The notes under the pieces: generated by a model
Told to the model about the DNA's origin: nothing
What the model saw: only the letters and a program-made list of their open reading frames with translations
The model's database searches: none
Position numbers and translations under genes: made by a program
Shown: positions 1,215-59,830 of the stretch, one piece after another
Numbering within the stretch: the first letter of the stretch is position 1
Layout: every line of letters starts with the position of its first letter
From: Owenia fusiformis
Taxonomy: Eukaryota > Annelida > Polychaeta > Sabellida > Oweniidae
Direction: 5' to 3'
DNA length: 64,000 nt
Assembly (NCBI GenBank): GCA_903813345.2
Contig: CAIIXF020000010.1
Span: 13,707,181-13,771,180, forward strand

Positions 1215-1352
1215 TGAACGGTGATTCACAGTTGGTGTTTGGCAGTCAGCATTCGGGAGTTAGTGTTCGGTGGCTGGTGTTCAGCGGTCAGTGGTCAGCA
1301 TCTGTAACAAATGGCAGGTGGTGATATTTTGCATCTTAACACCTTGTTATAT
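1215..1352 (+). mobile_element. Degenerate copy of the gtcaccacc/ggtggtgac element
   Basis: It contains the family's 'ggttggtgttcggcg'-like GGC/GTT-rich block, the 'catctgtaacaa' block and a 3' end reading ggcaggtggtgatattttg, followed by taacaccttgtta. The same order is found in the better copies at 16510-18100 and 22862-23090. The 5' hairpin is degraded. Confidence 0.5.
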
Positions 1353-4765: not shown

Positions 4766-4865
4766 ATGAGAGGTCTACCTGAGTCGACCAGTGAGATGAT
4801 TCCAAGACGGGGAAGTGTTTTGGACCTTGTCTCTGCCTTTGAGAAACCAAAACCTCGATACCAAG
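4766..4865 (+). CDS. First coding exon B of the Rho-GEF-like gene
   Basis: ATG at 4766 opens a frame reading MRGLPESTSEMIPRRGSV followed by LDLVSAFEKPKPRYQ. It runs to CCAAG|GTTTGT and ends in phase 1. Joined to the acceptor at 23400 it continues in frame as E-KNIRRLND, with no stop at the junction. RRGSV fits the PKA-type consensus R-R-x-S. No convincing acceptor with a pyrimidine tract precedes the ATG, which supports an initiating exon. The donor has only moderate strength. Residues 1-33 of the model. Confidence 0.65.
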
Positions 4866-43800: not shown

Positions 43801-46800
43801 TTCATGATTTGTAATAAAGTATATATTCTATACAAACAAAATAAATTGACAAATAAATAAATTCTGTTTGGAAACTTTTACTATCATCATAGCCAGTATT
43901 TCTTTATGTCATCATTTTTTATATAACCATGTGATGTGATACTATATACTTATTATAGTATAGATTGCAGTGTAATATTGCATCATAACCATTGTTTTCT
44001 GGCCTTCAATTGAAACTCATTTTGATGTAATAATCTAGGCACACAGTTTCCTAATGATATGAGATTTTATAACAACTCTTAATATCTGGAGTTGTTGCAG
44101 TTATTTCATATTATTAAGTTGATAATGCAAAACGCTTTTGTAACTTTTAAACATACCAATTAAATAATTCACTATTATTACTATTATTGCATTGAAATAT
44201 TTTTGAATTAGAATAAAAATTTCAAGACTTATGGGACAACCCTAGTTCAAATTGTTTTATTTGATTCTTTCAGGTAATGGCCATAATAGCTCCAGTGAAG
44301 TAGCAACACAAGAGAAAAGGTAATACATGGTTTAATACAAAAACCAATGTGTGGGGCACTATGTATAAATTGATGTCTAGCTGCACATATTTCATAACAC
44401 TTTGTCGCTCAGTTGTATAAGTTGTTGTTCAGTATTGTTGTTGTTAATGATGATGTAAATGTTCAGCTTATATGTGTTTGTAATTTCATCAGTGTTTTTC
44501 TGACCTTCATTTTAAATTTTCTCTGCACATAATTCCTAATATGAGATTTCATTACAGCTGTTGATAACAATAATAACTTCTTGTTTACATGCATTCGAAT
44601 AAAATCCATGGAGAATACCCCCTAGGCCCATAAAAAGTATTATCCGCATACCAGTAAATTCTGTTATGTACCACAAAGTTTTTAAGTAAAACTAAGTTTA
44701 TGAAATGTAGCTCCAGATTTAGTTGTCCCTGTATTCTGCTGCACCTACCCACTGAAAGTTTACCCGCTTTGTGAGTCGATCAATTATGAGGCATTCATCT
44801 CTTTATGAGAATGTTTCCCCTGTCTACCCCCCTCCCCCCCTGTCTAACCCCCTCTCCACATTTACCCAATTAAGTCTCAGTCACATTTGCTCTACGGCAG
44901 CCATAGTTTCACAAAAATGAAATAGAAAATTGACATTGTACTGCTTATCTCTATATTTTATGCTGTATACTTCTCTCGAATTTTGAAATCTACAGCCGCC
45001 TTGGGGTTGCTGTAGATTAAATGTGACTGAGGCATTACATCTGTCTTTCCACATTTTGTGTCTGTTGGCTCAATACATTTATTGTTAATGTTGCTTAGCC
45101 TGATTTTGTTGTATGTGGTTGGGTTTAGGTTCTTATACCATGCATTATATCTTCCCACTCATAATTTCTGATCGATTACCATTTAGATGAAACAGGCGAC
45201 AAAGGAGTTTTTTTTAAATTTTTATTATTACCAGGGCATCTGGGTACAAACCTCACTTTTCTAATTACTGAGCGCCATCTATCTGTCACTTTCAGCGTTA
45301 CACCTGCCAGATCTCATATCCAAATCCAAAAACTTATAGCAGACCACGAGTGAGTCATCCATGTTACAGTTTGCATTTTTGTGATTTTCGCTCGATCTTT
45401 GCTTTTTTAAACCATGATGAATAACTCTATGCTTAGAATTATTTTACAAAGAATCATGTTTGGTTTGACTTTCTCCTTAATGTGTCTTTCATATTAATTT
45501 TTTGATTAATCAAAAAGGTTGTCAAATTTTAATTGTTCATTTGCATGTACAACCTTACTGTTAGTAAAATGATTATCTGGTGCTATGAAAATCCAAGACA
45601 TGTTTATAGATAAATAAGTGCATGAGGAGTGGTTTGTTAAGCAAATGTTGATTTATTAAATTATCATTTTTGATCCTTAATAATTTCAAGCAGCTGAGAC
45701 ACCCTGGGTATAGTCTGTCACGTGACTTCATGGATGACGTGTGCGCGAGTGATTCGCATTTTCTTTCGCTTGAGGTTTGTAATCACACTTTTTACATGTT
45801 TTAAGATTTTGTATCTCTGTGAAACTTGTCCCGTACCATCAATGTCTGAAGACGATCTAATTCACCAAATATCTCATCCAAGCGTGTCCCGGTTAAAGAG
45901 AAATTCGCACTTTTGTGTCTCGCAAAATGACGTGTGCGCGAGTAAATCGAATTTTACGAAGGATGGGTGCGCGAGTCTAAAATATTTTTATTCACTTGAG
46001 ACAATTCTGCAAGCTAAGGCAGAATACAACTCACGTGACATTTGTTTTTGTCATCTTAAAGTAGTATGTTAAAGAATAGTTTGCTATTTTGTAGATGTTT
46101 CATGTATGGCACATACATGTCTACGTTTAATGACAATAAATGTTTTGAAATAGCTTGTAGGGCTGTCCGGCATTGCAGGTGAATTAAAATTTGAACCAAA
46201 AATTGAATTAAATTTTTGGCGGTCTCATAAAACCGGCAGCATATTCATTTATTGACATCCCATACAAGGGGGGGGGGGGTCAGAGTTGTTATGTGGTTAC
46301 TCGGCATCCGCCACGATCAGAACCATGTAAGGAATAGTAAGGGGAAGCCCATGATACCAAGTAATATCAAATAATTATAGGAGCTTCTAACTTCTTCCGC
46401 ATCCCCACCCTTGGTATACGCAGCTGACAAAATGGATCGGTACGGGTCAAAAGCTGGACCGGTACGGGTTAACGGTTTTATTTGAATTTAAAACAGCTAT
46501 AACTTGCTCAATATTGACTTCTTCGTATCTAAGTTGAAATATATGATCCCTCCGAATGATTTTAAGTACCCCCAAAGTTCACCCGTACAAGTCCAGCTTT
46601 TGACCCATACCGGTCCATTTCGTCATCTGCGTATACCAAGGGTGGGGATGCGGAAGAAGTTAGAAGCTCCTATAATTATTTGATATATATAGGTTATTTA
46701 CTGGGAGGGATTGAATATGGGTTTTATTCCGAGGGACAATATGATATTGACCGAAGGGTAATATGATATTGACCGAGGGAGCGCAGCGACCGAGTGTCAA

Positions 46801-49800
46801 TATCATATTTCCCAAGGTCAATATCATATTTTCCGAGGAATAAAACCCATATTCAATCCCGACCAGAAATAACCTATTTATTCCATATTACATTCCTCCT
46901 TAAAATGTTACATTTGGATAATGCTTTTATCAATTAGTCAGGGTTAAAAATAACCGGGAAAACCAAAAATAGGTTAATACGTTCCAATACGATTTTTGTC
47001 CCGGGGACAATACGATTTTTCCATGTAATACGCTCCAATACGATTTTTTTCCCGGGGACAATACGATTTTTTCATGTAATACGATTCAATACGATTTTTA
47101 TTCCTTCATATTTCCCTGGGAAAACAGTAGTATTATGGAATAATACTTGGTATCATGGGCTTCCCCTTACTATTCCTTACATGGTTCTGATCGTGGCGGA
47201 TGCCGAGTAACCACATAACAACTCTGACCCCCCCCCCTTTGTATGGGATGTCAATAAATGAATATGCTGCCGGTTTTATGAGACCGCCAAAAATTTAATT
47301 CAATTTTTGGTTCAAATTTTAATTCACCTGCAATGCCGGACAGCCCTACAAGCTATTTCAAAACATTTATTGTCATTAAACGTAGACATGTATGTGCCAT
47401 ACATGAAACATCTACAAAATAGCAAACTATTCTTTAACATACTACTTTATGATGACAAAAACAAATGTCACGTGAGTTGTATTCTGCCTTAGCTTGCAGA
47501 ATTGTCTCAAGTGAATAAAAATATTTTAGACTCGCGCACCCATCCTTCGTAAAATTCGATTTACTCGCGCACACGTCATTTTGCGAGACACAAAAGTGCG
47601 AATTTCTCTTTAACCGGGACACGCTTGGATGAGATATTTGGTGAATTAGATCGTCTTCAGACATTGATGGTACGGGATAAGTTTCACAGAGATACAAAAT
47701 CTTAAAACATGTAAAAAGTGTGATTACAAACCTCAAGCGAAAGAAAATGCGAATCACTCGCGCACACGTCATCCATGAAGTCACGTGACAGACTATACCC
47801 AGGGTGTGAGAGGATTTGGCATAAACATACTAATTCTACAATGCTGTAGTTTAACATACAGCCCCTAAAAGTATCCTTAACTTCAGGCAATTCATTCATC
47901 TAGAGCGAATATTACTTAACTTTGCATCAGACTGTGTTGGATTGTATACATGCTTGTACATGAAACATGTGTATGCAATATTTGCGTAAAACACAGTGCT
48001 GTAATTAAGAAATGGTGTTGGGGATAAATTGCATGTGGCTTTATGTGACAGTCTCGCATCAGTCCCCTGGATTCCCCATCTCAGCACTGAAAAAGTTTAT
48101 GCTGGGCTGGGGCAGGGTATCATCAATAATGAAGATTCATAAGTTAGGAATTGAAGCTTAATTTTTTGTTTTCTATTTTGCAAGGTGATTTCAAGGCTAA
48201 TTAACTTAGTTCTGTCATGTGTAGTACATTGATAACAGTAAAGTATAATCATCTTCACTATTTAACTTGAGCTATTAGATTTAAATTAGTGTAAACATAC
48301 GAGGACTAACCAAAATGTTTTGTCCTGTTTTCAGTGCTCAGTTGCAAGAGAATGCTGCCTGGGTGAATGAGGATCATGGTATAAATAACTATCTTCACAA
48401 TGAGGCTACTCAGAAGAAACCCTGCTTGTCTATGATTGAGTTCCTCAATGAGTAAGTTTTTCACTAAATTTCTTGAATGACTCTCGTATTCTGAGATCAA
48501 TATATTCCAAGAACCACAGGATGAAATTTGAAATATTACTTGGAATATGTTGATTTCACTACTTCACTAATGCCTCAGTCACATTTGATCTATGGCAACA
48601 GTATGGTGGTCATAGCTTCCCAAATTCGAGAGAAATAAACAGCATGAATAAAGGGATTAGCAGTACGATGTCGATTTTGTGAAGCTACGGCCTCCATACG
48701 CCGGCCGTAGAACAAATACGAGTGAGGCTTTTCTTAGATTATAGTGATATTTGAATCCCCTGTTATTGTTATTTCAAAGCACATGTTGTTGTTGTGTAGT
48801 TCTGGCACTATTGGAAAATAACCAAAGAAATCCCCTTTGATTAGAAATATTTTCATAAAAATAAAGATGAAAGAGTTCCTTTCTGAAATGTACAAAGAAG
48901 ATATATTTTTTTGAATGATATGATGTTGAGTTTTCCAAACATTGAACTTCTAATTTATTTAGTTTATAAGTTTAAATTGAATGACTGAACATTTAAATTA
49001 TACATTTCAAATCAGGAATTTCTTATTCTATTCTTGGATTAAAATTGTATATTATTTATTTACTGTGTTGCCATTATTTTTAATCCAAGAATACTATGTT
49101 ATGTTTAATTGTTCGCGTTCCATGTTATTCTCTTGCAATGAGTTAATGTTAAAGGTGTGACATAGTTAGTGTAGGTGTGACAAGATTTGTTATATTTGGT
49201 ATGACATGAGTTAGAATTTTGAAGCTTTTTTGCATGAGGAATCGTGGTCCTGTTAATGTTTTGATACATCATTCGCTTTGGATTTGGAGAGAATTTTGTA
49301 CTAACATGATCGCATTTACAGTGTGTGCTTTAATATTAACCTTCCACTCCTAGAAATGTATAGTGTTGTCTACAAGGATATGGCTGGGTGCTTATTACCC
49401 ATTTTTTTTATTCCTGGATAGGGTACAGTGTTTTGCTTTGAAGAGATATCTGAATAAGATACAAAAGTAGTGTTTTCTCATCATACATAGGATTTTCGCC
49501 TAATGTTTGACATTTTTAGTCAGTTTTTTCTTTAAGAAATGTTCTTAATGCTTTAAATGTAACCGGATGTATACATGCATACTGTAGTTAGTTAGAAGTG
49601 TGTAACACTTGCTTACATAGAGGGTGTGACATACAATGTTACATGCAATAATCCATGGTACTAAGGTCTTTGCTTTGCACTGCATCTCTGTAGGTAAGTA
49701 GTGTGTCTAGAATGTTGGTACATGAGTCTGCGTGATAGGATGTTCATTACAGGGTGTCCAAGAAGTGATGCATCTGGCATTTATTTCCTTTGAGGGACAC

Positions 49801-52800: not shown

Positions 52801-55800
52801 TGCATTTATTTTTGTGAATTAAATTTATTGAAAAAAGATTCATGTAATATTCTATGTTTTACAGTAATAACTGTTGAACAGTATTCCATTTGTTTTGTTT
52901 TGAAGTTCTTATTGTTTTTTCATAGAAACCTACTGAAATAAACATAAATAAAAATGATGACCAATTACCTAAAAATGCTCAATTCCACCAAATTTATAGC
53001 ATTTACAAGGTCTTATAGATCAGAATTTCAAAAGTCTGGCAATGTTTTGACTTTTATTCTATAGAATTTCTTGGAAAAGGAACTATTTAATAGAAAGGTA
53101 CTTGTAATCTGGGCCTTAGTACTCACTCTAGCAATGTTGATATTTTTCTGCTAACCTGTCTGTATAGATCAATCCATCAACTGGAATACATCATCGGGGC
53201 CTCATAGAAATTTCACAGGCCTGGAAATGTGTATAAATAGTAATTCATCAATTAAAAAGTCATTTGGTTCAGTTTATACATATCACACTTGGAAGTTTTT
53301 TCTTGACTATTTCGAGACAAATATATCCATATTGAGTACCCGGAACTGAATCTTAGCCAAATATAACTGTAGTTATCTCACGTTAAATGATACCATTGCA
53401 GATAAATGTTGTATTCTGCAACAACCACCTTGCTTCAATGACTACTGGTGAACAATGTGAATTAGTTGTTGAATTATATGATGGATTTTGTGGTTACAGC
53501 CCAGCAAACTTTAGCGGAGAAGACAAAGTAGTGAAGCGTGACCTTCTCAAAGAGGATAAAAAGCGGAGATCTAGTGTATTTGCAAAGTTTGGGAGCTACA
53601 GGCAGAAAGTTAAGGTATTTTATATAATGTTTCAACGACAATAAGGTGCCAATACCTTACAGTCTTTCAAAAGGATTATATATATCATTTTTAATTACTA
53701 TTATTTTATATGTGAAATATATTATCTAAACAATAAAATTAACATTTCTTCCATAATGCAATAAAACAAACCAAGTAAAAAAATTTTTTTTTAAATATTA
53801 AGTTGGAGTTTTATGTCCATTGTATCCCATTATTGTGAGCCTCAGAAGCTGAGTAGGTTGACAGATGACATTTAGAATCTCAGAACATGACAACTTGTTT
53901 AACCCTCTGAAGTACAGGGTGGGCCATAAGAAATGGGACACTGCAGTATTTAATATCACATAGATGTATGACATACCAATTGCACAAAATAATGAAAACA
54001 TGCATCATGTGACTTTAAATGTTATGACTTTTACATGCAGTAGAACCTGTCTATGTTCTACTTGAGAGGTGTTATACTTATAGAGGTTCATTTCTAGAGG
54101 TGTTCCACTTCACATGTTTCACTGTACATCCACAAATCGTAAAACCTTACACTTATTAATTTTTTGTGACATTCAGTTCATAAGCATTTTTTTAAATAAA
54201 ATTAAAGTGAGTGTTCCATTTTTGGCCCACCCTGTAATAACCCCTGCTTGCTTCCATTATATATAACTAAAGATGATATTTTCTAAGACAATTCAGATCA
54301 TTAAACCTACAAGAGTTCTATTTTTGAAATGGTATATTGTTATAGTCCCATTATTGTGATTTATTGTTGGCGGCTATATCATCCATTTCAAAGACCCGTA
54401 GAGATGAGAAATATAGAAAAAATAGAATATGACTACCACTCCCATCCTTCTAAAATAGACAAATGATACTAAATAAAGACATGAATTCAGCCTGATGCCC
54501 GAGGAGCAGAAAATACATTTATGGAACTCTGCAGGTTTCCCCTACAAAAACACATTTGCCAAAATGAGTAATTAAGAATAAAAGAAATGTGTAATATCAC
54601 CATACACAACTTATTTGACGTCTGATCAGAAGTAATTTATTTTCATTTTTCGAGGCTCTAATACAATTTTCATTTCATTCTGTAAACATGTGGAACAAAC
54701 ATGTGATGCGGAATTCTTTATGTTTCAGTTAAAAGAGGAGAACAAGAAGACACACAGTTTTATGCCCGTCTCATTCAGTAATGCCACCCTATGCGATGTT
54801 TGTGCCAAATCTATGTCCAACAAGTCATCAGTGCAGTGTGAAAGTAAGTTCATTTATTAACAATTAAGTCCTTTTACGCACAGCTTACGTTATGGCACCA
54901 TCATATTGTTACAGTCTCCAGGCATCCTTTGGCAACTGTAACAAATGGCTGGTGTTGACATTTTGGTGTTAATGCCTTGCAAATCAATGAACTCATATCA
55001 ACATCACAATAAGAGAACGAAACACATGAATGTGCTTACATATGATTGGGTTATATAAGGTTATATTGAATGGATGATAATAAACTGTCATACAATGCAA
55101 TAACAACTTTCTTATTATATTATTTATTTTATATTTGATGACAATGGTTGTTAATGGGGTGAGTGATCCGAGGGTTAAAGACTTGGTGTCAATGAACTAA
55201 ATGCAAGTAGAAATAAACTTCAATACACAAGTAATCATTAAATATTCAAAATTTAGTCAAAATATTGCTGATATCTACATACAAAATGACATCCAGAAAA
55301 TGAAGTTTTAAAGATTGTTTATCAACTTTGATTTGTAATTTTCATTGATTAAGTGATTCCTACATCGGGGAGATTTCCCATAGACCCCATGTTATAAAAT
55401 CATGAAAACTAAAACACATATTATCTTCAATTGTGCAGATAATAATTCATTTCATTGAACTTATTTTGGATTGTATAATTATCAAACTCAAAAAGGTTAG
55501 ATGAAAATTGATCCCCTAAATCTATTCATTGGTGAAGTAAGACAAACTTTTTCTACGCCTGTCACGTTATCTGACCTGAATTAGCCACCTGGTGGTGAAA
55601 TGGGTAACTGTTCACTTGCACCTTATGTTTAACTGACAAAATAATAGATCAATCTCCATTTAATTGACATGATGAATCTTCACGGGCGGATGGTTGTTTA
55701 TAGTCGAGTAATCGTTTTTTGGTACGAGTCGCGACAAATCTTTTAATTAGTTATATTGTACGGAGGTGTGTTGTCTATTATTTGAATTTAGATGTACCTT

Positions 55801-58587
55801 TTAGCCCCTATTGTGAGCCATTAATCTCCCTTACCTGACGTCTTGTTAGTTAAAACCTCCTACTCCACATTTGATGGTGAAGACAGATCAGAATAAATAG
55901 AAATCGGCTAGTCTTATTTTTTTTTCCCACAAATGAATTGATCTGAAAATCAGTTTCATTTGCGTCAATTCTTCGCTCATATTTCAGTGTTTTCATTATT
56001 TTACAAAGGTATTAAGATACTAAGAATTATGGGATATGTTGACCTACTGAATGGAGCATTATGGGATCATTTGTTAACCTCCTTTAGTAATGATACTCAG
56101 TCCCTCAGACAATTGACCATCAGTGTTACATTCTACTTAGTTATAATAGAACAGTTTCTTGAAACATTATTGTTTTGCTTCAAGGATGGTGACATTCAGT
56201 TTCGGATAATTACTCGATATATTCTTTCGAGCCATGAAATGTCTATTTTTAAGAGTTGTTTTTGTTGTCTCTTTAGGAATCGCCCACTCATCTGTCTGTT
56301 TGTTACTATCACATATTAAATTTTGTAACACATATTGTTATTACATGTACTCGTTATAGAATGCATCTTTGATTTTGCTTCTTAAAAAGAGAGTCTTTTC
56401 TGCATTTTTAGGACTAGGTCTACTTTCGTGCAATCAGATAAGGTCAATCAAATTTTAACTAACCAATCAGAATTGCAGACTCTGAACTTTATACATTCAT
56501 AAGTAGCTGGTATTAGCCCTTTGGTTTCAGAGTATCTAAAATAATAAGTAAAAAATCTTATTTCAGATAATGTGATTTTTAAGATGAGCAAAATGATAAT
56601 GAGTAGTATTGCAAATTCGAGAAGACACCCTCTTTATAAATTGTTACCTCCATTTGGCAATTAGAGGTTTTTAGAAAAATGTGGTTCTGCTTTGGTAATG
56701 ATAAATGGTGATGATGCTTTGTACTTTAGCAATGAGAGGCTAGGCATTGTTCTTGTTTTAGCTGAAGATAAGTACTGTTGTTGCAGTGTTAACATTGTAC
56801 TTTTAGAGGTACTTCAGGGAGAGCTTTTCACCAAAAAAGATTAATTAGGGGTGGCGCCAAGTTTTAAATATTCCCATTAGTATATATTGTATAGTGTAGG
56901 GAGTAGGTACATGCCACTGTTTCATTTAGGTGGAAAAATTAATTGGAGCATTCAAGAAAATTGACTTTTGTTCCATGTGAAATTAGATAAGGTCAGGTTT
57001 GTATTCATGTATTCAGAATGAGATTAACTTCTTTATCGGATATCTAGGGCAGGGTTATATTGAACTCTGTGAAATGTTAAGCAAGAGTCGGTAATTTGGT
57101 ACATTTGAATCAACTGGGATCAACAATAATTCATCAAGCCGTACATCGTACATCGTCCAGAATTCAGGAAAGTACTTCCTATCAAATTGCATTGAATCGT
57201 TTTCGTTGCAGTTTAACCTGATCTGTTCATTGATTCTCTTTGAAGTCCAAATTCTAACTTAATTACATTAACTATTCAAAACCAATGGATGTCACAAAAT
57301 ATAGAAAATACAGCCTTAACATTCAAGTCTTGATCCTAAAGAGAAGATGATATTTGCAGAACCTAAAATCAATTAATTTGAAATTGAGCATTTATATCTG
57401 ATACAAAGAATGATTAAAATGAAACCAAACCATCAAAGTTAGATGAAATCATAGAATGAGAGCATATATTAATAGGACTGCCTTCCTCATCCTTGACTCT
57501 CATATCGCCCAACGGTTGATGAACTTTACGATGTGACATCACTATATAAACAACTTGAAAAACCTTGAAGTTGACAGTATACAAGTGTTTTATATATTAT
57601 ATAATGACATTAATTGAAGTGAATCGCTACAATACAATGTTAATGTGGACCTCTAGAGTGATACAAGAGTCAATATAACCATTATGATTAAAACATAAGA
57701 GGAGCACTTCCATTCAAATGTCATTCACTTCTGGGTTGAAATATGCTGAGGAAATGGGACGAGGTGCTCTGTATAAGGTTGTTGCTCCATCCTGTTTACA
57801 ATGTTCTTTGTCACAAGACATAAGTACTTGGACAAAGTTTGCTTGCTTCTGTCATCTTTAAGGTCTGACATGTTTAGTGGCACCATCCTGCTAAGCAGGT
57901 ATCCAGAATTCGTATCTCCTTCTTCCCCCTGCTTTAACCAATTTGGAAGCGCCCGATTAAACTGAATCACGTGATCTAATTATGCGCAATGACTTATACG
58001 TGATTTCTGTCGCAGTGTTGCGACAGCCAATCAGATTGCGAGTTCTTAATCGGGGAAATGCTAATTGCTTATCGCAGGGGGTAAAATGAAAGAATATATT
58101 CTGGATTTAAAGCCCTGTGATCAGAGGATGAGTGGCACAGGCTGGAATTGTTTGGCCTATATAGAATATTAATGCATATGTTGACCACTAGATGTATGTA
58201 CATAAATGTGCAGGACTAAAAAAGCTAAATATATTCATATATTATAATAAATTGATATTACAAAAATATATTTATTAATTGAACCATCACACAATAATTG
58301 AGTATTATAGGCACATAGTATATGTTGGCCGAGAGGGCTTGAGCGCCGGCACGTTCAGGCTAGGTAATTTGGCGCCATAACCACGAGGTTGCGAGTTCGA
58401 GACGCATGTCCTCCTTGTGTTTATTCATTTATCATAACTACATATTTACAAAATATACATTTATTTAAAACAGTAAAACCATCAGCATTAAATGAATGTT
58501 ATTATATTGTATATTCAAGGCTGTGGAATCAACGTACATGACCATTCCTGTAAAGAGCAAGTGAACCCCTGTACCAGAGTGAAGAAG
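4766..58587 (+). CDS. Partial Rho guanine-nucleotide exchange factor-like gene (C1-domain, ARHGEF2/ARHGEF28/AKAP13 type)
   Basis: Gene-level entry. Coding exons joined by GT/AG sites and phase: 4766-4865, 23401-23480, 32322-32421, 38807-39137, 40995-41167, 42301-42467, 43255-43387, 44274-44319, 45296-45349, 48335-48451, 50525-50573 (or 50581), 53402-53614, 54729-54843, 58520-58587. The sum is 1746 nt, exactly 582 codons with no internal stop. Residues 1-450 are mostly Ser/Thr/Asn-rich and low complexity, with basophilic phosphosite motifs (RRGSV, RQRSVSPP, RRQSW). Residues about 490-520 are basic (KEDKKRRSSVFAKF), and residues 530-577 form a C1 zinc finger. In ARHGEF2, ARHGEF28 and AKAP13 a similar C1 precedes the DH-PH module that activates RhoA. 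The long region before the C1 favours ARHGEF28/AKAP13 over ARHGEF2, whose C1 is near its N-terminus. The DH-PH part is not in the window, so GEF activity is inferred from C1 similarity alone. Other C1 proteins remain possible. Confidence 0.7.
4866..6850. other. Intron 1 (first part), no exon seen
   Basis: Contains homopolymer C runs (near 5685 and 6257, the second followed by a short CA microsatellite, 6257-6281). The open frames here lack splice context on either strand. Confidence 0.4.
6851..7042. mobile_element. MITE-like element with pogo/Tigger-like ends
   Basis: Starts acaatagagttaaacc and ends catgttttactgta. The body repeats 'gtgaacacc/gtgagcacc/ggtgttcac', the composition seen in the other acagtaaaacc-ended elements of this window (12563, 22561, 30347, 43011, 54038). 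TA flanks are plausible but the ends are worn. Confidence 0.5.
7043..10587. other. Intron 1 continued, nothing recognised
   Basis: About 3.5 kb of AT-rich DNA without a supported exon, RNA gene or complete repeat. Around 9849-9900 a short phrase (gtttagac, caggtttagac) is repeated three to four times. Confidence 0.4.
10588..10745. mobile_element. Palindromic foldback repeat (ggttatgtactggg family)
   Basis: The left arm (gggttatgtactgggagg ... ggatatggggtttatcc) is matched in inverted orientation by the right arm (ggatgaaccaaatatcc ... cgtacataac). Between them lie two inverted copies of an agatatgcatatct-like word and the phrase gaccgaagg. The same architecture and words (tactggg, gaccgaagg, tttatcc/tttattcc) occur at 46689-46877, so the two are members of one family. 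Confidence 0.65.
10880..11130. repeat. A/T homopolymer-rich block
   Basis: Repeated ttgaaaaaaa/aaattttttt words give a near-binary A/T sequence. The 87-codon minus frame across it is only Phe/Lys/Leu from poly-T and is not coding. Directly to the right, at about 11119-11145, the phrase 'cgggaagatatg / cgggagatatg' recurs and resembles the neighbouring foldback repeat. Confidence 0.6.
11146..12562. other. Intron 1 continued, no exon seen
   Basis: The open frame 11467-11763 is the longest here. It has no splice context and no recognisable domain, and I treat it as chance. Confidence 0.4.
12930..13656 (+). repeat. 239-bp tandem repeat, 3 copies
   Basis: The marker gcagacaa(g/t)attata occurs at 13164, 13403 and 13642, exactly 239 apart. 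Each unit itself carries two related halves around 'ggatgtttttgatttggatta'-type words (aagagaaaggtg versus tgaacaagtc). It sits inside the left arm of the 10 kb compound and explains why that arm is longer than the right one. Confidence 0.9.
13690..13868 (+). pseudogene. Remnant of a pogo/Tigger-like DNA transposase
   Basis: An ATG at 13703 reads MPPKKAHLTS and then stops. About 40 nt later LDILKDYASSRMSTRE is readable, and in another frame the region ends KQTTMNDFFKLK followed by TAA at about 13868. A basic MPPK-type start and a C-terminal K-Q-T-T-x-x-D-F-F-K are typical of Tigger/pogo transposases, but here start and end are under 200 bp apart. The DDE catalytic core is missing and the frame changes, so this is an internally deleted, dead copy. 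It supports the family assignment made from the TIR. Confidence 0.6.
13951..14478 (+). repeat. Left arm of long inverted repeat
   Basis: Inverted partner at 21722-22264. Shared blocks include gagctgtca/tgacagctc with the adjacent 'ggggtggtcacgacact', the short hairpin 'cccccctaggaaaatattctaggggg' (given here only by its halves cccccctagg and ctaggggg), and 'atgactttatagtgcccta' at the inner edge. Confidence 0.85.
14479..15311. other. No gene recognised
   Basis: AT-rich DNA inside the 10 kb compound. The 66-codon + frame at 15141 has no start or splice context. Confidence 0.35.
15312..15372 (-). CDS. Candidate second exon of a minus-strand gene (very tentative)
   Basis: On the minus strand the frame TCQKFGGNNFVTPDLTWKGS ends at a consensus donor, CAG|GTAAGTAAT. 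Acceptor-like ...tttgaag and ...cttatgaag lie upstream in phase 0, which is the phase left by the candidate exon at 15998-16126. I do not recognise the peptide and the pyrimidine tract is poor. It could equally be chance or transposon sequence. Confidence 0.2.
15951..16199. promoter_or_regulatory. NRF-1 / ETS promoter-like cluster
   Basis: Two palindromic NRF-1 consensus sites, TGCGCATGCGC, lie at 15951-15961 and 16188-16199. A partial one (CGCATGCGC) is at 16153-16161. ETS/GABPA-type sites lie at 16010-16027 (CACTTCCGGGCGGAAGTC, two opposed sites) and 16134-16141 (CCGGAAGT). This is a small CpG-bearing island in CpG-poor DNA. NRF-1 plus ETS is a known signature of TATA-less, often bidirectional animal promoters. 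The 16188 site is about 62 bp upstream of the minus-strand ATG at 16126. Confidence 0.55.
15998..16126 (-). CDS. Candidate first coding exon encoding a signal peptide and acidic linker
   Basis: The minus-strand ATG at 16126 opens MASFKILLVALCLYIYVF-SVNANS, a classic signal peptide (one Lys, a hydrophobic core, then small residues before a likely cleavage site). It is followed by LDDGDNDDDDFRPEVFSFR and a good donor, AGG|GTATGT, at 15998. That gives 43 codons in phase 0. Unspliced, the frame runs ten more residues and stops, giving a 53-residue peptide. The NRF-1/ETS cluster directly upstream supports transcription toward the left. No later exon is secure, so this could be the first exon of an overlapping antisense gene, a small secreted peptide, or a promoter captured by repeats. 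The start context is only fair. Confidence 0.4.
16510..18100 (+). mobile_element. Minisatellite-cored non-autonomous element (gtcaccacc family)
   Basis: The element begins with a hairpin (gtcaccacc / ggtggtgac, 16510-16530), then atattgttatggtctccg, a GGC-rich block (cggcgtccggcggttggcg) and gtctgtaacaa. After a tandem array it ends ggtggtgacattttgtcatg ttaatgccttg. The same head and tail occur in shortened copies at 1215, 22862, 24764 and 54892. No coding capacity was seen. A Helitron-derived element with a satellite core, like the bivalve 'pearl' type, is one possible class, but I see no proof of it. Confidence 0.65.
16670..18060 (+). repeat. Tandem array of about 10 units rich in AGGTCA half-sites
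   Basis: 'atctac(a/g)tgttctcag' recurs at roughly 16688, 16812, 16981, 17118, 17267, 17404, 17541, 17680, 17822 and 17948, with a spacing of 124-169 bp. Each unit carries tgacctt(c)aatgacctt and (in about seven units) ctcaaggtca, followed by aaaaaggtc. Internal repeats of 'agatttgac' account for the length variation. Confidence 0.9.
18101..19070. other. No gene recognised
   Basis: A GAA/AAT-rich stretch (18200-18400) resembles the block at 15480-15660. The remainder is unique-looking. Confidence 0.35.
19178..21121. mobile_element. Outer copy of the ggtagactg element
   Basis: TIRs are GGTAGACTGTAAATC at the left and GATTTACAGTCTACC at the right. Each TIR is extended by a run of the 9-bp word aaatctagt (or its complement). 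A second, complete copy (19832-20781) is inserted inside it. Without that copy the outer element would be about 985 bp, close to the inner one's 950 bp. The half-element order is therefore A-A-B-B. The interior has no coding sequence. Confidence 0.85.
19832..20781. mobile_element. Inner copy of the ggtagactg element, inserted into its own kind
   Basis: It is flanked by a perfect 9-bp duplication, ACGCATTGT, at 19823-19831 and 20782-20790. The same word is present once, unduplicated, in the middle of the inner copy (about 20452-20460), which is the homologous empty target. The TIRs are as in the outer copy. The copies look about 95% identical, so both insertions are fairly recent. Confidence 0.9.
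21267..21721. other. No gene recognised
   Basis: DNA between the split MITE and the right arm of the long inverted repeat. Confidence 0.35.
21722..22264 (-). repeat. Right arm of long inverted repeat
   Basis: Inverted partner of 13951-14478; see that entry for shared blocks. About 300 bp outside it lies the inverted terminus ending at 22561. Confidence 0.85.
22862..23090 (+). mobile_element. Short copy of the gtcaccacc element
   Basis: The head is atgccaccaccaagaaatag followed by tgacattttgttatag. Then come catctgtaacaattg and a tail gcaggtggttattacatttt gtcatgttaatgtcttgtta. It lacks the tandem core. Confidence 0.6.
23401..23480 (+). CDS. Exon C of the Rho-GEF-like gene
   Basis: Acceptor tttatatattgcag and donor TTG|GTGAGT bound an 80-nt exon. 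Entered in phase 1 it reads (E)KNIRRLNDISIGIRRLKA followed by KNENLGEL and leaves in phase 0. It is charged, with heptad-like I/L spacing (I-R-R-L-N-D-I-S-I-G-I-R-R-L), so it could form a short amphipathic helix or coiled coil. Either first exon (42-75 or 4766-4865) joins it without a frame break. Residues 34-60. Confidence 0.85.
23713..23888. mobile_element. MITE, family with atgcctcagtcacatttg ends (copy 1)
   Basis: The left end, atgcctcatcacatttgatc, is mirrored by tagagcaaatgtaactggagc on the right. The interior has inverted gccatat/gccataa and tcccaaaatcgag/gattttgtgaag words. Other copies lie at 44872-45037 and 48569-48730, and a variant at 52002-52145. Confidence 0.75.
24764..24870 (+). 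mobile_element. Head fragment of the gtcaccacc element
   Basis: It reads atgtcatcactaggagtgg, then agacatattgttacagtctc and a GTT/GGC-rich block (cggcggttggtgttc). No tail was found. Confidence 0.55.
30347..30507. mobile_element. MITE with pogo/Tigger-like ends
   Basis: Left TA|cggtaaaactgtc and right aggtttactttac, with gaacac / gtgttca words throughout (tcagaacac, aaagtgttcatat, aggtgttcaca, gaggtgttcag). Confidence 0.5.
31105..31241 (+). promoter_or_regulatory. Candidate internal promoter and mini first exon
   Basis: A TATA-like cataaaata at about 31112 is followed about 25 bp later by a CG-containing segment (ctccggtagccgacagccg). An ATG at 31220 then reads MSSRMLP to a strong donor, T|GTGAGT, ending at 31241. 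It ends in phase 1, so it can join only the 38807 exon (phase-1 acceptor) and would skip 32322-32421. Several other ATGs precede it, and the ORF is only seven codons. Confidence 0.25.
32322..32421 (+). CDS. Exon D of the Rho-GEF-like gene
   Basis: Acceptor tgtgctttcag, donor TCAG|GTAGGT. Phase 0 in, phase 1 out. It reads EDRKENLSRFSASCPSLDKQ followed by NLQSQSRIREHDS: hydrophilic and probably disordered. No known domain. Residues 61-93. Confidence 0.8.
32422..33102. other. Intron D, no other exon seen
   Basis: Early in the intron 'gttgctatg(g)' recurs four times (32430-32565), giving a weak short-period repeat. Confidence 0.4.
33103..33274 (+). CDS. Alternative first coding exon with a small Cys/His motif
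   Basis: ATG at 33103 (A at -3) opens MSSFGFTRRRSLSWNHGL... and the frame runs 57 codons to TGCAG|GTAAAT, ending in phase 1. It can therefore join the phase-1 acceptor at 38807 and give (G)D-YCKSM in frame. The C-terminal part reads FTCHECPFQNLENHYRICA, i.e. C-x2-C-x7-H-x3-C, resembling a shortened C2HC zinc finger. RRRSLSW is a strong basophilic phosphosite motif. There is no convincing acceptor before the ATG. An isoform starting here would replace residues 1-93 of the long form. It is an unusually good frame for chance, but expression is unproven. Confidence 0.55.
33275..34400. other. Intronic sequence, nothing recognised
   Basis: No exon or complete repeat. Immediately after the donor at 33275 'ttgccac(a/g)gta' occurs three to four times up to 33370. 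Confidence 0.4.
34401..35275. mobile_element. Tc1/mariner-like element with long TIRs
   Basis: The ends are TA|CACTCCCCTCCATAAG and CTTATGGAGGGGAGTG|TA. The inverted similarity continues inward for over 300 bp on each side: ggcaacctttttcccc, aagcctctttacc, then ttaccaatgggaaatgg-type words around the inner edges, with matching inverted copies near 35020-35100. The central 250 bp is not inverted and has no transposase frame. Size is 875 bp. Non-autonomous; arms perhaps 85-90% alike by eye, so of moderate age. Confidence 0.85.
35276..36654. other. Intronic sequence with a partial repeat
   Basis: At 35465-35545 the phrase cccgactgattgagtacttt ... gaacaaaatactcaagcggcc matches the centre of the palindrome at 52002-52145. 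Otherwise nothing was recognised. The frame at 36432-36650 has no splice context. Confidence 0.4.
36655..36862 (-). mobile_element. tRNA-derived SINE-like sequence (minus strand)
   Basis: On the minus strand, 36862 to about 36800 reads gctatcatagtagttaagcg (A-box-like), then gtgcacatctggtgtgca and ggttcaattcctggttc, a good RNA polymerase III B box (GGTTCAANTCC). Downstream on that strand (36655-36780) are words 'ttggggtttagaggccc' and 'ccaaattatc' related to the 59634-59830 repeat. A SINE or tRNA pseudogene is more likely than a functional tRNA because the stems pair poorly. Confidence 0.5.
36863..38718. other. Intronic sequence, nothing recognised
   Basis: AT-rich, no supported exon or complete repeat. 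Confidence 0.4.
38719..38790 (+). repeat. Short tandem repeat next to a splice acceptor
   Basis: About 3.5 copies of a 21-22 bp unit (tatcacattattttaggg-like) end 16 bp before the AG at 38805-38806. The branch point and part of the pyrimidine tract of the next exon are likely to fall in or beside it. Confidence 0.8.
38807..39137 (+). CDS. Exon E of the Rho-GEF-like gene
   Basis: Acceptor ctctacttccag, donor AAAAAG|GTAACC. Phase 1 in, phase 2 out, 331 nt: the largest exon found. It reads (D)YCKSMLDITPECDENATYP..., an acidic Thr/Pro-rich start. A run of NNNN (NTINNNNTS) follows, then RQRSVSPPSD and KDFRRQSW, two basophilic phosphosite motifs of the kind bound by 14-3-3 in related GEFs. The exon ends QFKTQILAAQGK. 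Disordered linker, no folded domain recognised. Residues 94-204. The acceptor accepts exon D and the alternative starts at 31220 and 33103 equally. Confidence 0.9.
39138..39925. other. Intron E, first part
   Basis: No exon or repeat recognised. Confidence 0.4.
39926..40396 (+). repeat. Two adjoining tandem repeats
   Basis: 39950-40145: about 2.5 copies of a roughly 75-bp unit (cactgtatcttaaattctgg ... ttggctctgtattcttga). 40146-40396: two nearly identical copies of a 125-bp unit beginning tgctcgctatatgttaaatt and ending cccata(g/c)ataaccgaag. The second unit looks like a diverged extension of the first. The near identity of the 125-bp pair implies a recent duplication. Confidence 0.85.
40995..41167 (+). 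CDS. Exon F of the Rho-GEF-like gene
   Basis: Acceptor cttcacttccag, donor ACTTCAG|GTAATG. Phase 2 in, phase 1 out. It reads (S)LSLSSLDGPGNQNEVNEEY followed by ETDDTESPRSGP and then a basic turn, SRVTRSNTLGTMSTVLEA. Acidic, Ser-rich linker containing SPR and RSNT phosphosite-like motifs. Residues 204-262. Confidence 0.88.
41231..41645 (+). repeat. Tandem repeat of 91-98 bp, about four copies
   Basis: 'ttgaacatctattttgtata' recurs at 41364, 41462 and 41553, with a diverged first unit from about 41231. Alternating 'acattgaacat' and 'tatgtaactttgtgca' words produce the spurious long frames on both strands. Confidence 0.85.
41646..42300. other. Intron F, second part
   Basis: Nothing recognised apart from the acceptor of the next exon. 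Confidence 0.4.
42301..42467 (+). CDS. Exon G of the Rho-GEF-like gene
   Basis: Acceptor ttttactgtttacag, donor GAG|GTATGG. Phase 1 in, phase 0 out. It reads (G)HSSPETEMVQHYSHLSTHS..., with an STHSGTHSSTHN run of three S-T-H repeats (encoded by acacatagcgg/acacatagcag, a small coding repeat). Then PPRPVSTASVRSLTDVRF and DFNSSSEHE. PPRPV is an SH3-ligand-like proline motif and SVRSLTD a phosphosite-like motif. Residues 262-317. Confidence 0.88.
42468..43010. other. Intron G, first part
   Basis: Nothing recognised. Confidence 0.4.
43011..43208. mobile_element. Duplicated end of a pogo/Tigger-like MITE
   Basis: Two roughly 110-bp units, each with gggttggacaaaacttggaa-like text, gaacctctc, ggaacac and ggagagtgttcctt. 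The block ends ggttttactgta, the terminus shared with 12563 and 22561. It ends 46 bp before the acceptor of the next exon. Confidence 0.6.
43255..43387 (+). CDS. Exon H of the Rho-GEF-like gene
   Basis: Acceptor tttgcaccatttcag, donor AAATC|GTAAGT. Phase 0 in, phase 1 out. It reads TSITSPQSQSDSPVNANGTM followed by LNVPNNMTKSKSTPSIPN and AENKEN. SP and KSKSTPS motifs; KEN is a D-box-like degron word, though a three-residue match is weak. Disordered. Residues 318-362. Confidence 0.88.
43388..44273. other. Intron H
   Basis: No repeat or exon recognised. Confidence 0.45.
44274..44319 (+). CDS. Exon I (46-nt microexon-like) of the Rho-GEF-like gene
   Basis: Acceptor ttgattctttcag, donor AAAAG|GTAATA. 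Phase 1 in, phase 2 out; RNGHNSSSEVATQEK. The exon is very short but its phases fit the exons on both sides, which is the main support for it. Residues 362-377. Confidence 0.8.
44320..44871. other. Intron I, first part
   Basis: C-rich pyrimidine run at about 44828-44855 (cccccctcc...). No gene recognised. Confidence 0.4.
44872..45037. mobile_element. MITE, atgcctcagtcacatttg family (copy 2)
   Basis: The left end, aagtctcagtcacatttgct, and the right end, aaatgtgactgaggcatta, are inverted. Interior gccatag / gccgcctt and cgaatttt words match the other copies. Confidence 0.75.
45296..45349 (+). CDS. Exon J (54 nt) of the Rho-GEF-like gene
   Basis: Acceptor ctgtcactttcag, donor CACGA|GTGAGT. 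Phase 2 in and out. It reads (S)VTPARSHIQIQKLIADH. It begins a more ordered-looking stretch, possibly an amphipathic helix, continued by the 48335 exon. Residues 377-395. Confidence 0.82.
46364..46688. mobile_element. Palindrome nested at the foldback centre (atatcaaataattatag ends)
   Basis: Ends atcaaataattataggagc and gctcctataattatttgat. The arms contain cttcttccgcatccccaccc, ttggtatacgcag, and an inner cggtacgggtcaaaagctgg matched by cagcttttgacccataccgg. Arms of about 110-150 bp, with a roughly 70-bp loop. Confidence 0.8.
46689..46877. mobile_element. Second nested palindrome (ggttatttactggg family)
   Basis: Ends ataggttatttactggg and ccagaaataacctat. Inner arms are gaatatgggttttattccg and cggaataaaacccat-type. 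Between them is gaccgaaggg / gaccgaggg with four inverted 'tatgatattgacc' words. Same family as 10588-10745. Confidence 0.8.
46985..47100 (+). repeat. Short tandem repeat (caatacgattttt units)
   Basis: 'caatacgattttt' occurs five times, alternating with gtcccggggaca and catgtaatacg. Period about 25 or 50 bp. It lies inside the foldback centre. Confidence 0.8.
47812..48334. other. Intron J, last part
   Basis: No exon or repeat recognised before the acceptor at 48334. Confidence 0.4.
48335..48451 (+). CDS. Exon K of the Rho-GEF-like gene
   Basis: Acceptor tttgtcctgttttcag, donor CAATGA|GTAAGT. Phase 2 in and out. It reads (D)AQLQENAAWVNEDHGINNYL followed by HNEATQKKPCLSMIEFLN. More hydrophobic and probably helical, unlike the preceding linker. 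No domain recognised. Residues 395-434. Confidence 0.88.
48569..48730. mobile_element. MITE, atgcctcagtcacatttg family (copy 3)
   Basis: Left aatgcctcagtcacatttga, right gaacaaatacgagtgaggctt. The interior matches copy 1 closely (atctatggcaac, tcatagcttcccaaattcg, gattttgtgaagctac). Confidence 0.75.
48731..50524. other. Intron K with a 55-bp mini-element
   Basis: No exon. At 49750-49804 lies a tiny TA-flanked inverted-repeat element, listed separately. 'tgtgacat / gtgtgaca' words recur around 49155-49205 and 49625. Confidence 0.4.
49750..49804. mobile_element. 55-bp MITE or solo TIR pair
   Basis: TA|CAGGGTGTCC ... GGACACCCTG|TA. The inverted termini match the mariner-like CAGGGTG start seen at 53915. 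It is exceptionally short, with about 35 bp between the repeats. Confidence 0.65.
50525..50581 (+). CDS. Exon L of the Rho-GEF-like gene, with two competing donors
   Basis: Acceptor gtcatatttacag. Entered in phase 2 it reads (E)ANSDEGSLDTVTEQDE-VF. Two donors are visible: a weak one after GAA (50573, GTATTT), which leaves phase 0 and fits the next exon, and a consensus one eight bases later (50581, GTAAGT), which leaves phase 2. Joined to 53402, the second gives TA|A, a stop. Unspliced, the frame also stops (TAG) at the same codon. Acidic. Residues 434-450 with the first donor. Confidence 0.72.
50582..52001. other. Intron L, no missing exon found
   Basis: I searched this stretch for an exon that would resolve the phase problem (one of length 3n+1, entered in phase 2). 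Only implausible candidates exist, for example 51057-51114 (hydrophobic, weak sites). The retrocopy at 51265-51345 lies here. Confidence 0.4.
51265..51345 (+). pseudogene. Short processed retrocopy with perfect target-site duplication
   Basis: An 81-bp insert ends with the signal AATAAA (51321), eleven bases of sequence and a run of A. It is flanked by a 13-bp perfect direct repeat, ATCTCCCAGATTT (51252-51264 and 51346-51358). These are the marks of LINE-machinery target-primed reverse transcription of the 3' end of a polyadenylated transcript. The source transcript is not recognised; it could be an mRNA 3' UTR or a LINE/SINE tail. Confidence 0.85.
52002..52145. mobile_element. Short palindromic element (aatgccttggtcacatttgc ends)
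   Basis: Left aatgccttggtcacatttgc and right gcaaatgtgacccaggcatt, with inner inverted ccggccaattgagtattctattc and its mirror caaaacactcaatcgactgg. A variant of the atgcctcagtcacatttg family with a different centre. Its centre is also present alone at 35465-35545. Confidence 0.75.
52268..52385 (+). repeat. 37-bp tandem repeat, about three copies
   Basis: Unit cagaattatttatattatt gagaaaa(t/g)gtt, recurring at about 37-bp spacing. Confidence 0.8.
52458..52469 (+). other. Possible alternative terminal exon
   Basis: A strong-looking acceptor (tttttcatgttttcag, ending 52457) is entered from the consensus donor at 50581 in phase 2. It gives only Y-A-M and then TGA. This would make a short isoform ending ...DEVFYAM, without the C1 domain. 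The pyrimidine tract is good but no poly(A) site was identified. Confidence 0.2.
52470..53401. other. Intron L, last part
   Basis: Nothing recognised. Confidence 0.4.
53402..53614 (+). CDS. Exon M of the Rho-GEF-like gene
   Basis: Acceptor ataccattgcag, donor TTAAG|GTATTT. 213 nt, phase 0 in and out. It begins INVVFCNNHLASMTTGEQCE, then LVVELYDGFCGYSPANFSGE, and turns strongly basic: DKVVKRDLLKEDKKRRSSVF and AKFGSYRQKVK. A Lys-rich stretch just before the C1 is also seen in AKAP13, where it is far longer. KRRSSV is a basophilic phosphosite motif. An in-frame ATG at 53387, just before the acceptor, would allow an alternative start (MIPLQINVV...) if transcription began in this intron. Residues 451-521. 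Confidence 0.82.
53915..54234. mobile_element. Mariner-like MITE (CAGGGTGGGCC ends)
   Basis: TA|CAGGGTGGGCCATAAG at the left and TTTTTGGCCCACCCTG|TA at the right. The inverted similarity extends to aaatgggacact / agtgttccattt. It lies in the intron after exon M and is interrupted by the element at 54038-54124. No coding capacity. Confidence 0.85.
54038..54124. mobile_element. Small pogo-like MITE nested in the mariner-like MITE
   Basis: CAGTAGAACCTGTCTATG at the left and CATGTTTCACTG at the right, with gaggtgttata / gaggtgttccac words inside. It sits in the body of the 53915-54234 element, so it is the younger insertion or a duplication within it. Confidence 0.6.
54729..54843 (+). CDS. Exon N: first half of the C1 zinc finger
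   Basis: Acceptor ctttatgtttcag, donor GAAA|GTAAGT. Phase 0 in, phase 1 out. It reads LKEENKKTHSFMPVSFSNAT, then LCDVCAKSMSNKSSVQCE. The pattern H-x12-C-x2-C-x11-C is the first part of a C1 domain. The 11-residue spacing matches ARHGEF2 (C-NKSITAKEALI-C) rather than the 13-14 of phorbol-ester-binding C1 domains, and the G/Q residues of the ligand loop are absent. It is therefore predicted to be atypical and not diacylglycerol-binding. Residues 522-560. Confidence 0.9.
54892..54978 (+). mobile_element. Minimal copy of the gtcaccacc element
   Basis: Head ggcaccatcatattgttaca gtctcc, middle aactgtaacaaatggc, tail tggtgttgacattttggtg ttaatgccttgc. The core is deleted. Confidence 0.55.
54979..57883. 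other. Intron between the two C1 exons, nothing coding seen
   Basis: The 119-codon frame at 55960-56319 has no supported start or splice sites and a hydrophobic, unrecognised translation; I treat it as chance. Confidence 0.4.
57884..58130. mobile_element. Uninterrupted MITE (catcct ends), the empty-site relative of 19071-21266
   Basis: CATCCTGCTAAGCAGG to AGAGGATG, 247 bp, flanked by an 8-bp direct repeat, AGTGGCAC (57876-57883 and 58131-58138). Internally it contains the near-palindrome tgtcgcagtgttgcgacagc and inverted ttccccctgc / gcagggggta words. It is about 90% similar to the two halves at 19071-19177 and 21122-21266. Confidence 0.88.
58325..58412 (+). tRNA. tRNA-like sequence (Ser/Leu-type A box), probably a pseudogene or SINE head
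   Basis: ttggccgagagggcttgagc resembles the A-box region of class II tRNAs (TGGCCGAGNGG). About 50 nt later gaggttgcgagttcgagacg resembles a B box (GGTTCGANNC). The spacing is about right for a class II tRNA, but the acceptor and anticodon stems do not pair well and no CCTACCGACG-like tail is seen. Not confidently functional. Confidence 0.4.
58520..58587 (+). CDS. Exon O: second half of the C1 zinc finger
   Basis: Acceptor ttgtatattcaag, donor AAGAAG|GTAGGT. Phase 1 in, phase 0 out. It reads (S)CGINVHDHSCKEQVNPCTR-VKK. Joined to the previous exon it completes C-x2-C-x4-H-x3-C-x6-C followed by T-R-V-K-K, matching ARHGEF2 (C-T-K-V-K) and AKAP13 (C-A-K-V-K) just after their last cysteine. The H-to-C spacing is three residues rather than two. 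The next exon, expected to lead toward the DH domain, is not in the window. Residues 560-582. Confidence 0.9.
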
Positions 58588-58965
58588 GTAGGTGCCTTGC
58601 ACTGGCTTATTTCCTATAGGGACTGTCTTTTATGTTTTGCATTCTTGAAAAAAGATCCAGATATCATTATGAGACATAAAGCTTGATTTGCTAACACTAG
58701 CGGCTATTTTCGCTGAGAATTGGATGAGAAATGTAGAATTTATGCTGAACTTTCGAGACAGCCCCTTAGATGACATTTTAGAACAGTCAAAAGAAACAAT
58801 TGAATTAGAGACAAACTCCCCATATGTGCATGGGCTACTTACATAGCTTATCCAGCATATATTATACACAATTAACGTCTAATTATTACACCTTATTAGG
58901 TGAGAGAGTAAACCAAAATGAAATTAATTATAATTTTTAAAACTTTTGACGTTTCTGTAAGATCC

Positions 58966-59142
58966 AGGCCCGTAGCCAGCTTTTGCCAAAGTGGGGTCAC
59001 TTTTCCAAAAATCCAGGAGGTTCACATTTGACTATTTTGGCCCAAAATTACTTGAAAAGTCCTCAGAATGGTGAAAAACTACATGATTTTGAAAAAAAAT
59101 TTACCAGCAGTGGCGGTACACCCCCTGGCTACAGGCCTGAGA
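58966..59142. mobile_element. MITE-like element (aggcccgtagccag ends)
   Basis: Left caggcccgtagccagc and right ctggctacaggcctg form the inverted ends. The interior has tttggcccaaaatta and gaaaaactacatgatttt. Confidence 0.65.
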
Positions 59143-59633
59143 TCCTTCATTGATAGTAATATTTTAGTGAAGAGCGTAGAATTTCAGGTATTTTAGGTGA
59201 TGCTGACTGCTCCAGTTTATCACAGGTGTTACCTTTGTCCATATAACTAGAACATGATCGGTTAAACATAAAACTGCGATTAATCACTTACCAGAACGTG
59301 AACATGTAACAACCATGATTTTATAATACAATATTAAAAAAAAAGGTTTGGGTCCTTTATGCATTGTTATAATTGTTAGTTTATTGTTTACATTTTCTAA
59401 AAAGGTTATTTACAAGGGATATGATATATCGATCAGGAGCTTAAAGAAGATGAATTACTGATTCTGCCTTTAGTTATAATATATGTTTTGATGAATGAGT
59501 GTCAAGGTTTACTCCATCAATCTCTGAAAGATGGTTTCATTCATGCTAAATCCTGAACATAATTGATGGTTGTTTCTCATTTTCCAAGAAATAGTATGGC
59601 ATAATGCCCCTTTCACTCATCATAGTTACAGGG

Positions 59634-59830
59634 GCAGATCTCAAAACTAACAAGGGGTCCACATTTCAAGCCTGAAAAAAATTTGCCCCCTAAAACCAAA
59701 GATTAGGCCAAGATTTTGAAATTTAAGGCTCATTTTCTTGAATGTTTTGGTGTAAAAATAAGACCCAGTAATCCCCAAAAATGCCCACAAATTGGGGCCT
59801 TAAAATACTTCCCCCAGATTCGCCAGTGAG
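59634..59830. repeat. Interspersed repeat shared with 36655-36780
   Basis: Shared phrases: gattaggccaagattttgaa / attaggcccacattttgaaa, catttcttga-like cattttctga, and a terminal cagattcgccagtg / ggatctgccagtgg. A worn, dispersed element of unknown class. Confidence 0.5.

Follow-up and report, generated by a model that had tools for sequence, protein, structure and literature searches.

A 64,000-bp stretch of the genome of the annelid Owenia fusiformis (assembly GCA_903813345.2, contig CAIIXF020000010.1, forward-strand positions 13,707,181 to 13,771,180), here called the window, contains an inverted-repeat element of 2,107 bp (45700-47806) that is bordered on both sides by a perfect 5-bp target site duplication (TSD) with the sequence TGAGA (45695-45699 and 47807-47811). 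Counts of its ends in the genome, set against a reversed control, exclude chance; the element is a real and young foldback copy, most likely of a non-autonomous family of DNA transposons. The explanation that in our view best accounts for the whole body of data, and in which we place good confidence, is that a young, non-autonomous family with terminal inverted repeats (TIRs) derives from an asymmetric parent, and that its foldback members arose through an inverted duplication pivoted on a nested miniature inverted-repeat transposable element (MITE). The ends, the TSDs, the copy number, the young age, the existence of two end types (A and B), the MITE at the centre of the foldback and the change of its flanks from direct to inverted can all be read directly from the genome. 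Foldback elements as a class are already known; it is the mode of origin that is unusually readable here.

Structure of the window element

The outer ends of the element are CACCCTGGG...CCCAGGGTG (in a longer reading, CACCCTGGGTATAG...CTATACCCAGGGTG), and the terminus CACCCTGGGTATAGTCTGTCACGTGAC (45700-45726, plus strand) has 117 exact copies genome-wide. The left arm (45700-46405, plus strand) represents the parental A half as far as the MITE, a 239-bp sequence with the ends CACCCTTGGTATACGCAG (46406-46644) that is flanked by the inverted pentamers ATCCC and GGGAT and forms the pivot of the palindrome. The right arm, on the minus strand, consists of an inner piece (46645-46686) and an outer piece (47132-47806), between which lies a 445-bp insert of other repeat DNA (46687-47131) that is absent from all other copies compared. 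Without this insert the arms measure about 706 bp, and their alignment yields 7 mismatches and 1 gap over 676 bp, plus 42 bp at 100% identity past the insert. An earlier note, made from the letters of the window alone, had given the coordinates and the TSD exactly and had correctly described the arms as nearly identical, with two amino acid differences between their reading frames (ETC/ETY and CHL/CHH); it also recognized the foldback structure, but overlooked the central MITE and the insert in the right arm. The frame in the arms matches no Pfam family and sits in end sequence common to the copies, and for these reasons we do not read it as a gene.

A subterminal repeat with the motif GTGTGCGCGAGT is present at 45734-45762 (plus strand), again at 45927-45955 and, in a weaker form, at 45960-45988, with mirrored copies at 47744-47772, 47551-47579 and 47518-47546; these repeats possibly serve as binding sites for the transposase. 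The 445-bp insert is composite, as it combines a part with short inverted repeats and a tandem array whose unit is 51 bp long (TAATACGTTCCAATACG...); DNA beside another copy of the family (locus L053; such L numbers denote loci throughout) matches about 64 bp of the insert at 77% identity.

A young family of TIR elements

The genome searched comprises 498 Mb in 525 contigs. It contains 162 ends (79 + 83) with at most 3 mismatches to the 29-base terminus, while the reversed-pattern control found none (0 + 0); 117 ends (91 + 26) are exact over 27 bases. Positional pairing of the exact ends yields 48 elements of 1,197 to 7,233 bp (median about 2,016 bp) and leaves 21 ends unpaired; eleven of the 48 pairs have the foldback length of 1,600 to 1,660 bp. 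An exact 5-bp TSD borders 29 of the 33 distinct copies that were read with both flanks, whereas left flanks paired with the right flanks of other copies agree in only 7 of 1,624 cases. The TSDs lean towards A/T and have no clear consensus. Terminal inverted repeats and a TSD of fixed length at independent sites, the marks of a TIR DNA transposon, are hence both present. The earlier note had proposed that the element is a foldback DNA transposon of young age, with CAC termini and a 5-bp TSD, and had named a deviating TSD length in other copies as the finding that would speak against it; both the genome-wide search for copies and the comparison of their TSDs bear the proposal out.

Over the first 312 bp, A ends diverge between copies by 0.38% (346 comparisons) and B ends by 0.52% (119 comparisons), while A and B ends differ by 2.05% (419 comparisons). 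The divergence between the A and the B end inside one and the same copy is also 2.05% (13 comparisons). Since the within-copy value equals that found between copies, both end types were inherited together and their spread was recent. The family is not brand new, however, because several copies already bear further insertions.

The asymmetric parent

The parent was asymmetric, with an A end at one side and a B end at the other. Inwards of each end lies what is left of a zinc-finger-like exon, and these exons are convergent. Among 24 copies that were typed, 13 are clearly of the A...B type. The A and B ends have a sequence in common over about 327 bp and then diverge. On the A side, the exon starts with MDSPSTSGLETTV behind a splice acceptor (TTTCAG, followed by GTATTTAATATG; this is the acceptor before ATGGATAGC), and its 149-amino-acid frame contains three C2H2 finger stretches (zf-C2H2, E = 1.9e-12). 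This exon is found at seven places with identities of 85-100%, the longest version being a frame of 172 amino acids in L053. The B-side exon lies behind the acceptor TTTGCAG, followed by GAAATATG (the acceptor before ATGTACGCC), and starts with MYACYHCPPG...HTWEEH, which resembles a C2H2-type finger; no match to this exon was found in Pfam. DNA of the B interior is present at 20 places (all 20 candidates were scored). The longest B interior read, about 830 bp, is that of L041, where the B-side exon ends at a donor-like site. Promoters of both genes may reside within the TIRs, since a splice acceptor directly precedes the first ATG of each exon.

The DNA between the convergent exons is kept in none of the copies read, and no intact parent was found among them in the assembly; it might survive as a diverged or unread copy. 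Two distant relatives of the B exon (L067 and L068) were rejected as candidates, as they are degenerate and gave no Pfam match in the three frames of the exon strand.

Origin of the foldback

The central MITE is intact in 27 distinct copies, and its immediate flanks fall into two states. In 19 of these copies the flanks are direct (ATCCC/ATCCC; one copy with a single change), and the pentamer is the MITE's own 5-bp TSD within the A half. In the remaining eight (the window element, L002, L008, L016, L017, L030, L037 and L047) the flanks are inverted (ATCCC/GGGAT; in L016 the right flank GGAAT is a single change from GGGAT), and the A half follows the MITE in inverted orientation. Since the flanks are direct in the A...B state and inverted in the foldback, the foldback represents the A half duplicated in inverted orientation, with the MITE as the centre.

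We envision the following course of events. A MITE with ends similar to those of the family would already have resided in the A half, flanked by the 5-bp TSD of its insertion. The A half would then have been copied across the MITE, with a switch from one inverted MITE end to the other, so that an inverted A half replaced the B half; template switching during repair, or conversion within the element via the inverted ends of the MITE, are possible routes. The product would have kept two good ends and been amplified at new sites, presumably in a cut-and-paste mode, by a transposase acting in trans that recognizes the CACCCTGGG ends, and perhaps also the subterminal GTGTGCGCGAGT repeats, and whose cuts at the target are staggered by 5 bp. 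Because no autonomous copy was found, we infer, rather than observe, this supply of transposase in trans.

Replacement of B by A seems to be recurrent. Three more copies (L080, L052 and the 7,233-bp copy) carry A at both ends with other junctions: measured from the replaced end, the copied A tract stops at position 507 in L080, at 581 in L052 and at 740, inside the MITE end, in the 7,233-bp copy, while the opposite end of these copies retains A sequence to 630 or 1,304. In these three copies A sequence persists past the MITE or the zinc-finger exon, which rules out descent from the centred foldback, and the distinct junctions therefore indicate that A replaced B more than once. In L041 the outer ends are both of the B type, and A sequence lies inside the right one (1 difference in 312), a pattern that points to conversion between ends. 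The contribution of the MITE would be that it turns such an end conversion into a near-perfect palindrome.

Several points weigh against this reading. The eight centred foldbacks have one common junction and may thus trace back to a single event followed by transposition. In the copies read and in profile searches, neither an autonomous copy nor a transposase was found, and the partner with the same termini that the earlier note had presupposed did not turn up. Four of the 33 copies examined for TSDs, which were picked from the first-listed and the longest ones and not at random, lack an exact 5-bp TSD: it measures 3 bp in L004 and 6 bp in L047, agrees in the last 2 bp only in L069, and is 4 bp in L006, where, as judged by eye, loss of a single TIR base would account for a TSD of 5 bp (ATATA). 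The means of A/B divergence exclude five of 48 ends, for which no assignment to A or B was possible. Finally, all of the evidence comes from copies in the assembled genome.

The reverse order of events, in which the foldback came first and gave rise to the A...B copies when one arm was lost or replaced, would agree with the abundance of foldbacks among the short copies. We regard it as very unlikely: A...B copies retain DNA that the foldback lacks (A sequence past the MITE, the zinc-finger exon and the B interior), and they retain the direct TSD of the MITE, a state that must be the older one because direct repeats arise by insertion. Long perfect inverted repeats are a known class of assembly artefact, but a collapsed or mirrored copy is an extremely improbable source of the element, as the inverted junction is present at eight loci, the 5-bp TSDs differ by locus where both flanks were read, eleven pairs have the foldback length, and an artefact would not create target duplications; the earlier note's view that the element is genuine is thus very probably right.

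How an ordinary transposon becomes a near-perfect palindrome is as a rule deduced from nothing but the end product. In the present genome the two states occur side by side, ends of the same type differ by less than 1%, a nested MITE with a TSD that turns from direct to inverted marks the junction, and other copies carry A in place of B at other points. The closest parallel is Galileo, a Drosophila element of the P superfamily that likewise has long TIRs and foldback-like, chimeric and extended-TIR copies, and for which a route via TIR1-F1-F1-TIR2, with one end copied over the other, was proposed (PMC3573991). The route suggested here is the same, and the coexisting states and the MITE-marked junction make it directly readable. 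In contrast to Galileo, the pivot is a nested MITE. Furthermore, Galileo has a 7-bp TSD and a known P-type transposase (PMC3573991), whereas the TSD here is 5 bp, the ends start with CAC, and no transposase was found; the TSD length thus does not fit the P superfamily as represented by Galileo.

Search for an autonomous partner

The partner was sought by length. Nineteen of the 48 pairs exceed 2.2 kb, and all of these but one, the pair of 2,667 bp at C11:35841089, were read; none of the 18 contains a long frame taken as the transposase of the family, only some of the frames having been compared with Pfam. Their extra length is retained A or B interior, the zinc-finger exon, or other DNA, such as a Polinton-like insert (L039), an insert with 542-bp TIRs (the 7,233-bp copy), MITEs, tandem repeats, and pieces of a long interspersed nuclear element (LINE) in L040, L042-L046 and a 3,106-bp copy. 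From the 21 unpaired exact ends, L011, L016, L019, L030, L031, L034, L069, L072 and L074 were read; L069 (4,596 bp, diverged TSD) contains another LINE piece. Those left out include C9:23584567, C6:16360113, C7:398059, C8:22311763 and C105:16503. Individual positions were listed for 100 of the 162 ends.

Several candidates were rejected. A frame with an FTGCD motif in the 7,233-bp copy cannot be the partner gene, as the insert that contains it has TIRs of its own (542 bp) and a TSD of 3-4 bp. This nested element occupies positions 975-5825 of the copy (C11:25148449-25155681; loci L071 and L003), its TIRs are 98.5% identical and start with TAGGTAGTG, and its frames, including that with the FTGCD motif, are broken; a similar frame is also found inside the inverted-repeat insert of L085. 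The pattern CACCCTGGGTATAGV, used for diverged relatives, occurs at nine places, and the three that were read are an unrelated tandem repeat (L082-L084; unit about 132 bp, the first of which contains CACCCTGGGTATAGC by chance). The letters of the TIR were matched in three papers, which, judged by their titles, are not about transposons.

The Pfam model RAG1 (PF12940), which is not specific for Transib, gave three matches over the genome, all below the cut-off. These led to a separate family of RAG1-core-like transposases (L077, C8:5760491-5762311; L079, C1:15860493-15862322; L078, C4:30069679-30071283) with open frames of 729 and 726 amino acids, two copies of which are 97.8% identical over 3.6 kb. 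Against solved structures it matched RAG1 (E = 4.5e-4) over two stretches that are colinear, and a C-x2-C motif closes one of them; against Pfam RAG1 the match was E = 0.0013 (17.4 bits, cut-off 25). The genome contains 30 matches to this family out of 45 candidates. It was rejected as the partner, since all 30 are more than 10 kb away from the 117 exact ends listed and the homology of two copies stops at another sequence.

Superfamily affiliation

We assign the family to no superfamily, and the earlier judgement that the ends alone fit none stands. The 29 varied 5-bp TSDs do not agree with Kolobok or piggyBac elements, which target TTAA. The CACCC ends differ from the TGTNR ends (PMC2836005) of Ginger2/Tdd, a group with TSDs of 4 or 5 bp. 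By the length of its TSD, hAT5, a group of hAT elements with 5-bp TSDs (PMC12730594), is a candidate, no hAT search of the genome having been made. What CAC ends and a 5-bp TSD do fit is either Transib/RAG or the CMCT clade.

CMCT elements mostly have 5'-CA..TG-3' ends and TSDs of 2-5 bp (PMC12730594), and the family lies within both ranges. It might accordingly be assigned, tentatively, to a CMCT lineage other than Transib/RAG that has CAC...GTG ends and a 5-bp TSD, be it EnSpm, a Chapaev-like lineage or one not yet described; the ends and the TSD are all that speak for this, and they are weak evidence. The transposase of the clade is marked by C(2)C and H(3-4)H motifs, and no transposase turned up in the copies read. 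According to a bolder and rather unlikely proposal, the parent would represent an undescribed cut-and-paste lineage beside Transib/RAG in CMCT, with CAC ends, 5-bp TSDs, convergent genes headed by zinc fingers and promoters in its 327-bp TIRs, in which A was recurrently copied over B and palindromes formed via a MITE pivot of the same lineage. If true, the same ends would serve both as targets of the transposase and as gene starts.

The earlier note had pointed to Transib/RAG-type transposases, and the family might be a non-autonomous branch moved by a RAG1-like enzyme that recognizes a CAC heptamer. Transib and RAG-like elements have CAC ends and 5-bp TSDs, and RAG-like transposons carry two convergent genes (PMC7204232); ends, TSD and the convergent gene remnants agree with this, and the genome does contain RAG1-like transposase frames. 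We nevertheless consider this assignment unlikely. Past CAC, CACCCTGGGTATAGTCT does not fit the protostome RAG-like TIR consensus CACTWMCAAACKTYKBB given there (PMC7204232): compared by eye, it agrees only at one two-fold T/G position at 12, at one at 15 and at the two loose B positions, and the AAA block is GGT here. The TIR of about 327 bp is likewise unlike those of Transib/RAG-like elements, the remnant exons are zinc-finger-like and match neither RAG1L nor RAG2L, no RAG1 domain exceeds the Pfam cut-off anywhere in the genome, and the RAG1-like frames keep away from the exact ends, although the positions of mismatched ends were not all listed. Whatever their affiliation, these CAC-ended termini with 5-bp TSDs are offered by the family for an enzyme yet to be found.

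The nested MITE family

The MITE at the pivot belongs to a family of its own in the same genome, CACCCTTGGTATACG, also written CACCCTTGGTATACGCAGCT, with CAC...GTG ends. It is represented by 1,023 ends (at most 1 mismatch; control 0), as compared with the 162 ends (at most 3 mismatches) of the foldback family, and many of the pairs among the ends listed are 0.4-0.9 kb apart. An autonomous partner of the MITE family was not found. Of 14 positions, 12 are identical between the MITE end CACCCTTGGTATAC and the outer end CACCCTGGGTATAG, and the TSDs in the two cases seen are 5 bp long (ATCCC at the nested site and ATGAG in L085); past the end, the copies compared have no similarity to the foldback family. 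The like ends and 5-bp TSDs hint at related transposases.

Host context

The window element is likely to reside in an intron, as the earlier note had proposed. Exon-like frames on the plus strand, which may belong to a single gene, lie on both sides of it, and one of them (54636-54860) matches part of a C1 domain below the cut-off (E = 4e-4; 20.6 bits, cut-off 26.5). What speaks against an intron is that five other frames, at 33091, 38776, 40900, 42285 and 53387, had no match to a Pfam family, and that a scan of the three plus-strand frames of 53001-62400 returned no family at E<=0.01 and did not show C1.

Cargo and other inserts

In six of the copies read (L040 and L042-L046), a LINE piece separates A from B sequence (e.g., L043:934-2765, with a repeated AATTC tail at the B junction). 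Its frame of 508 amino acids matches RVT_1 (E = 4.6e-34 in L043) and is open in two of the six copies (L043 and L045) and broken in the other four. Because each of the six copies has its own 5-bp TSD, the LINE piece moved as cargo, and the family hence provides an example of a DNA transposon that has taken part of a retroelement to six or more sites.

Two further inserts were observed. In L039, a 3.3-kb insert (1022-4346) with the ends AGTAGTTG... and a 6-bp duplication (CATGTC) encodes an integrase core and a chromo-type domain (rve, E = 7.5e-11) and has a weak packaging-ATPase-like match (Pox_A32, E = 0.0023, below the cut-off); we take it to be a Polinton-like fragment. In L041, a high-copy repeat of about 373 bp is nested in the B half (1230-1602); it has 2,121 first-look candidates in the genome, 40 of which were scored and are 97-99% identical.

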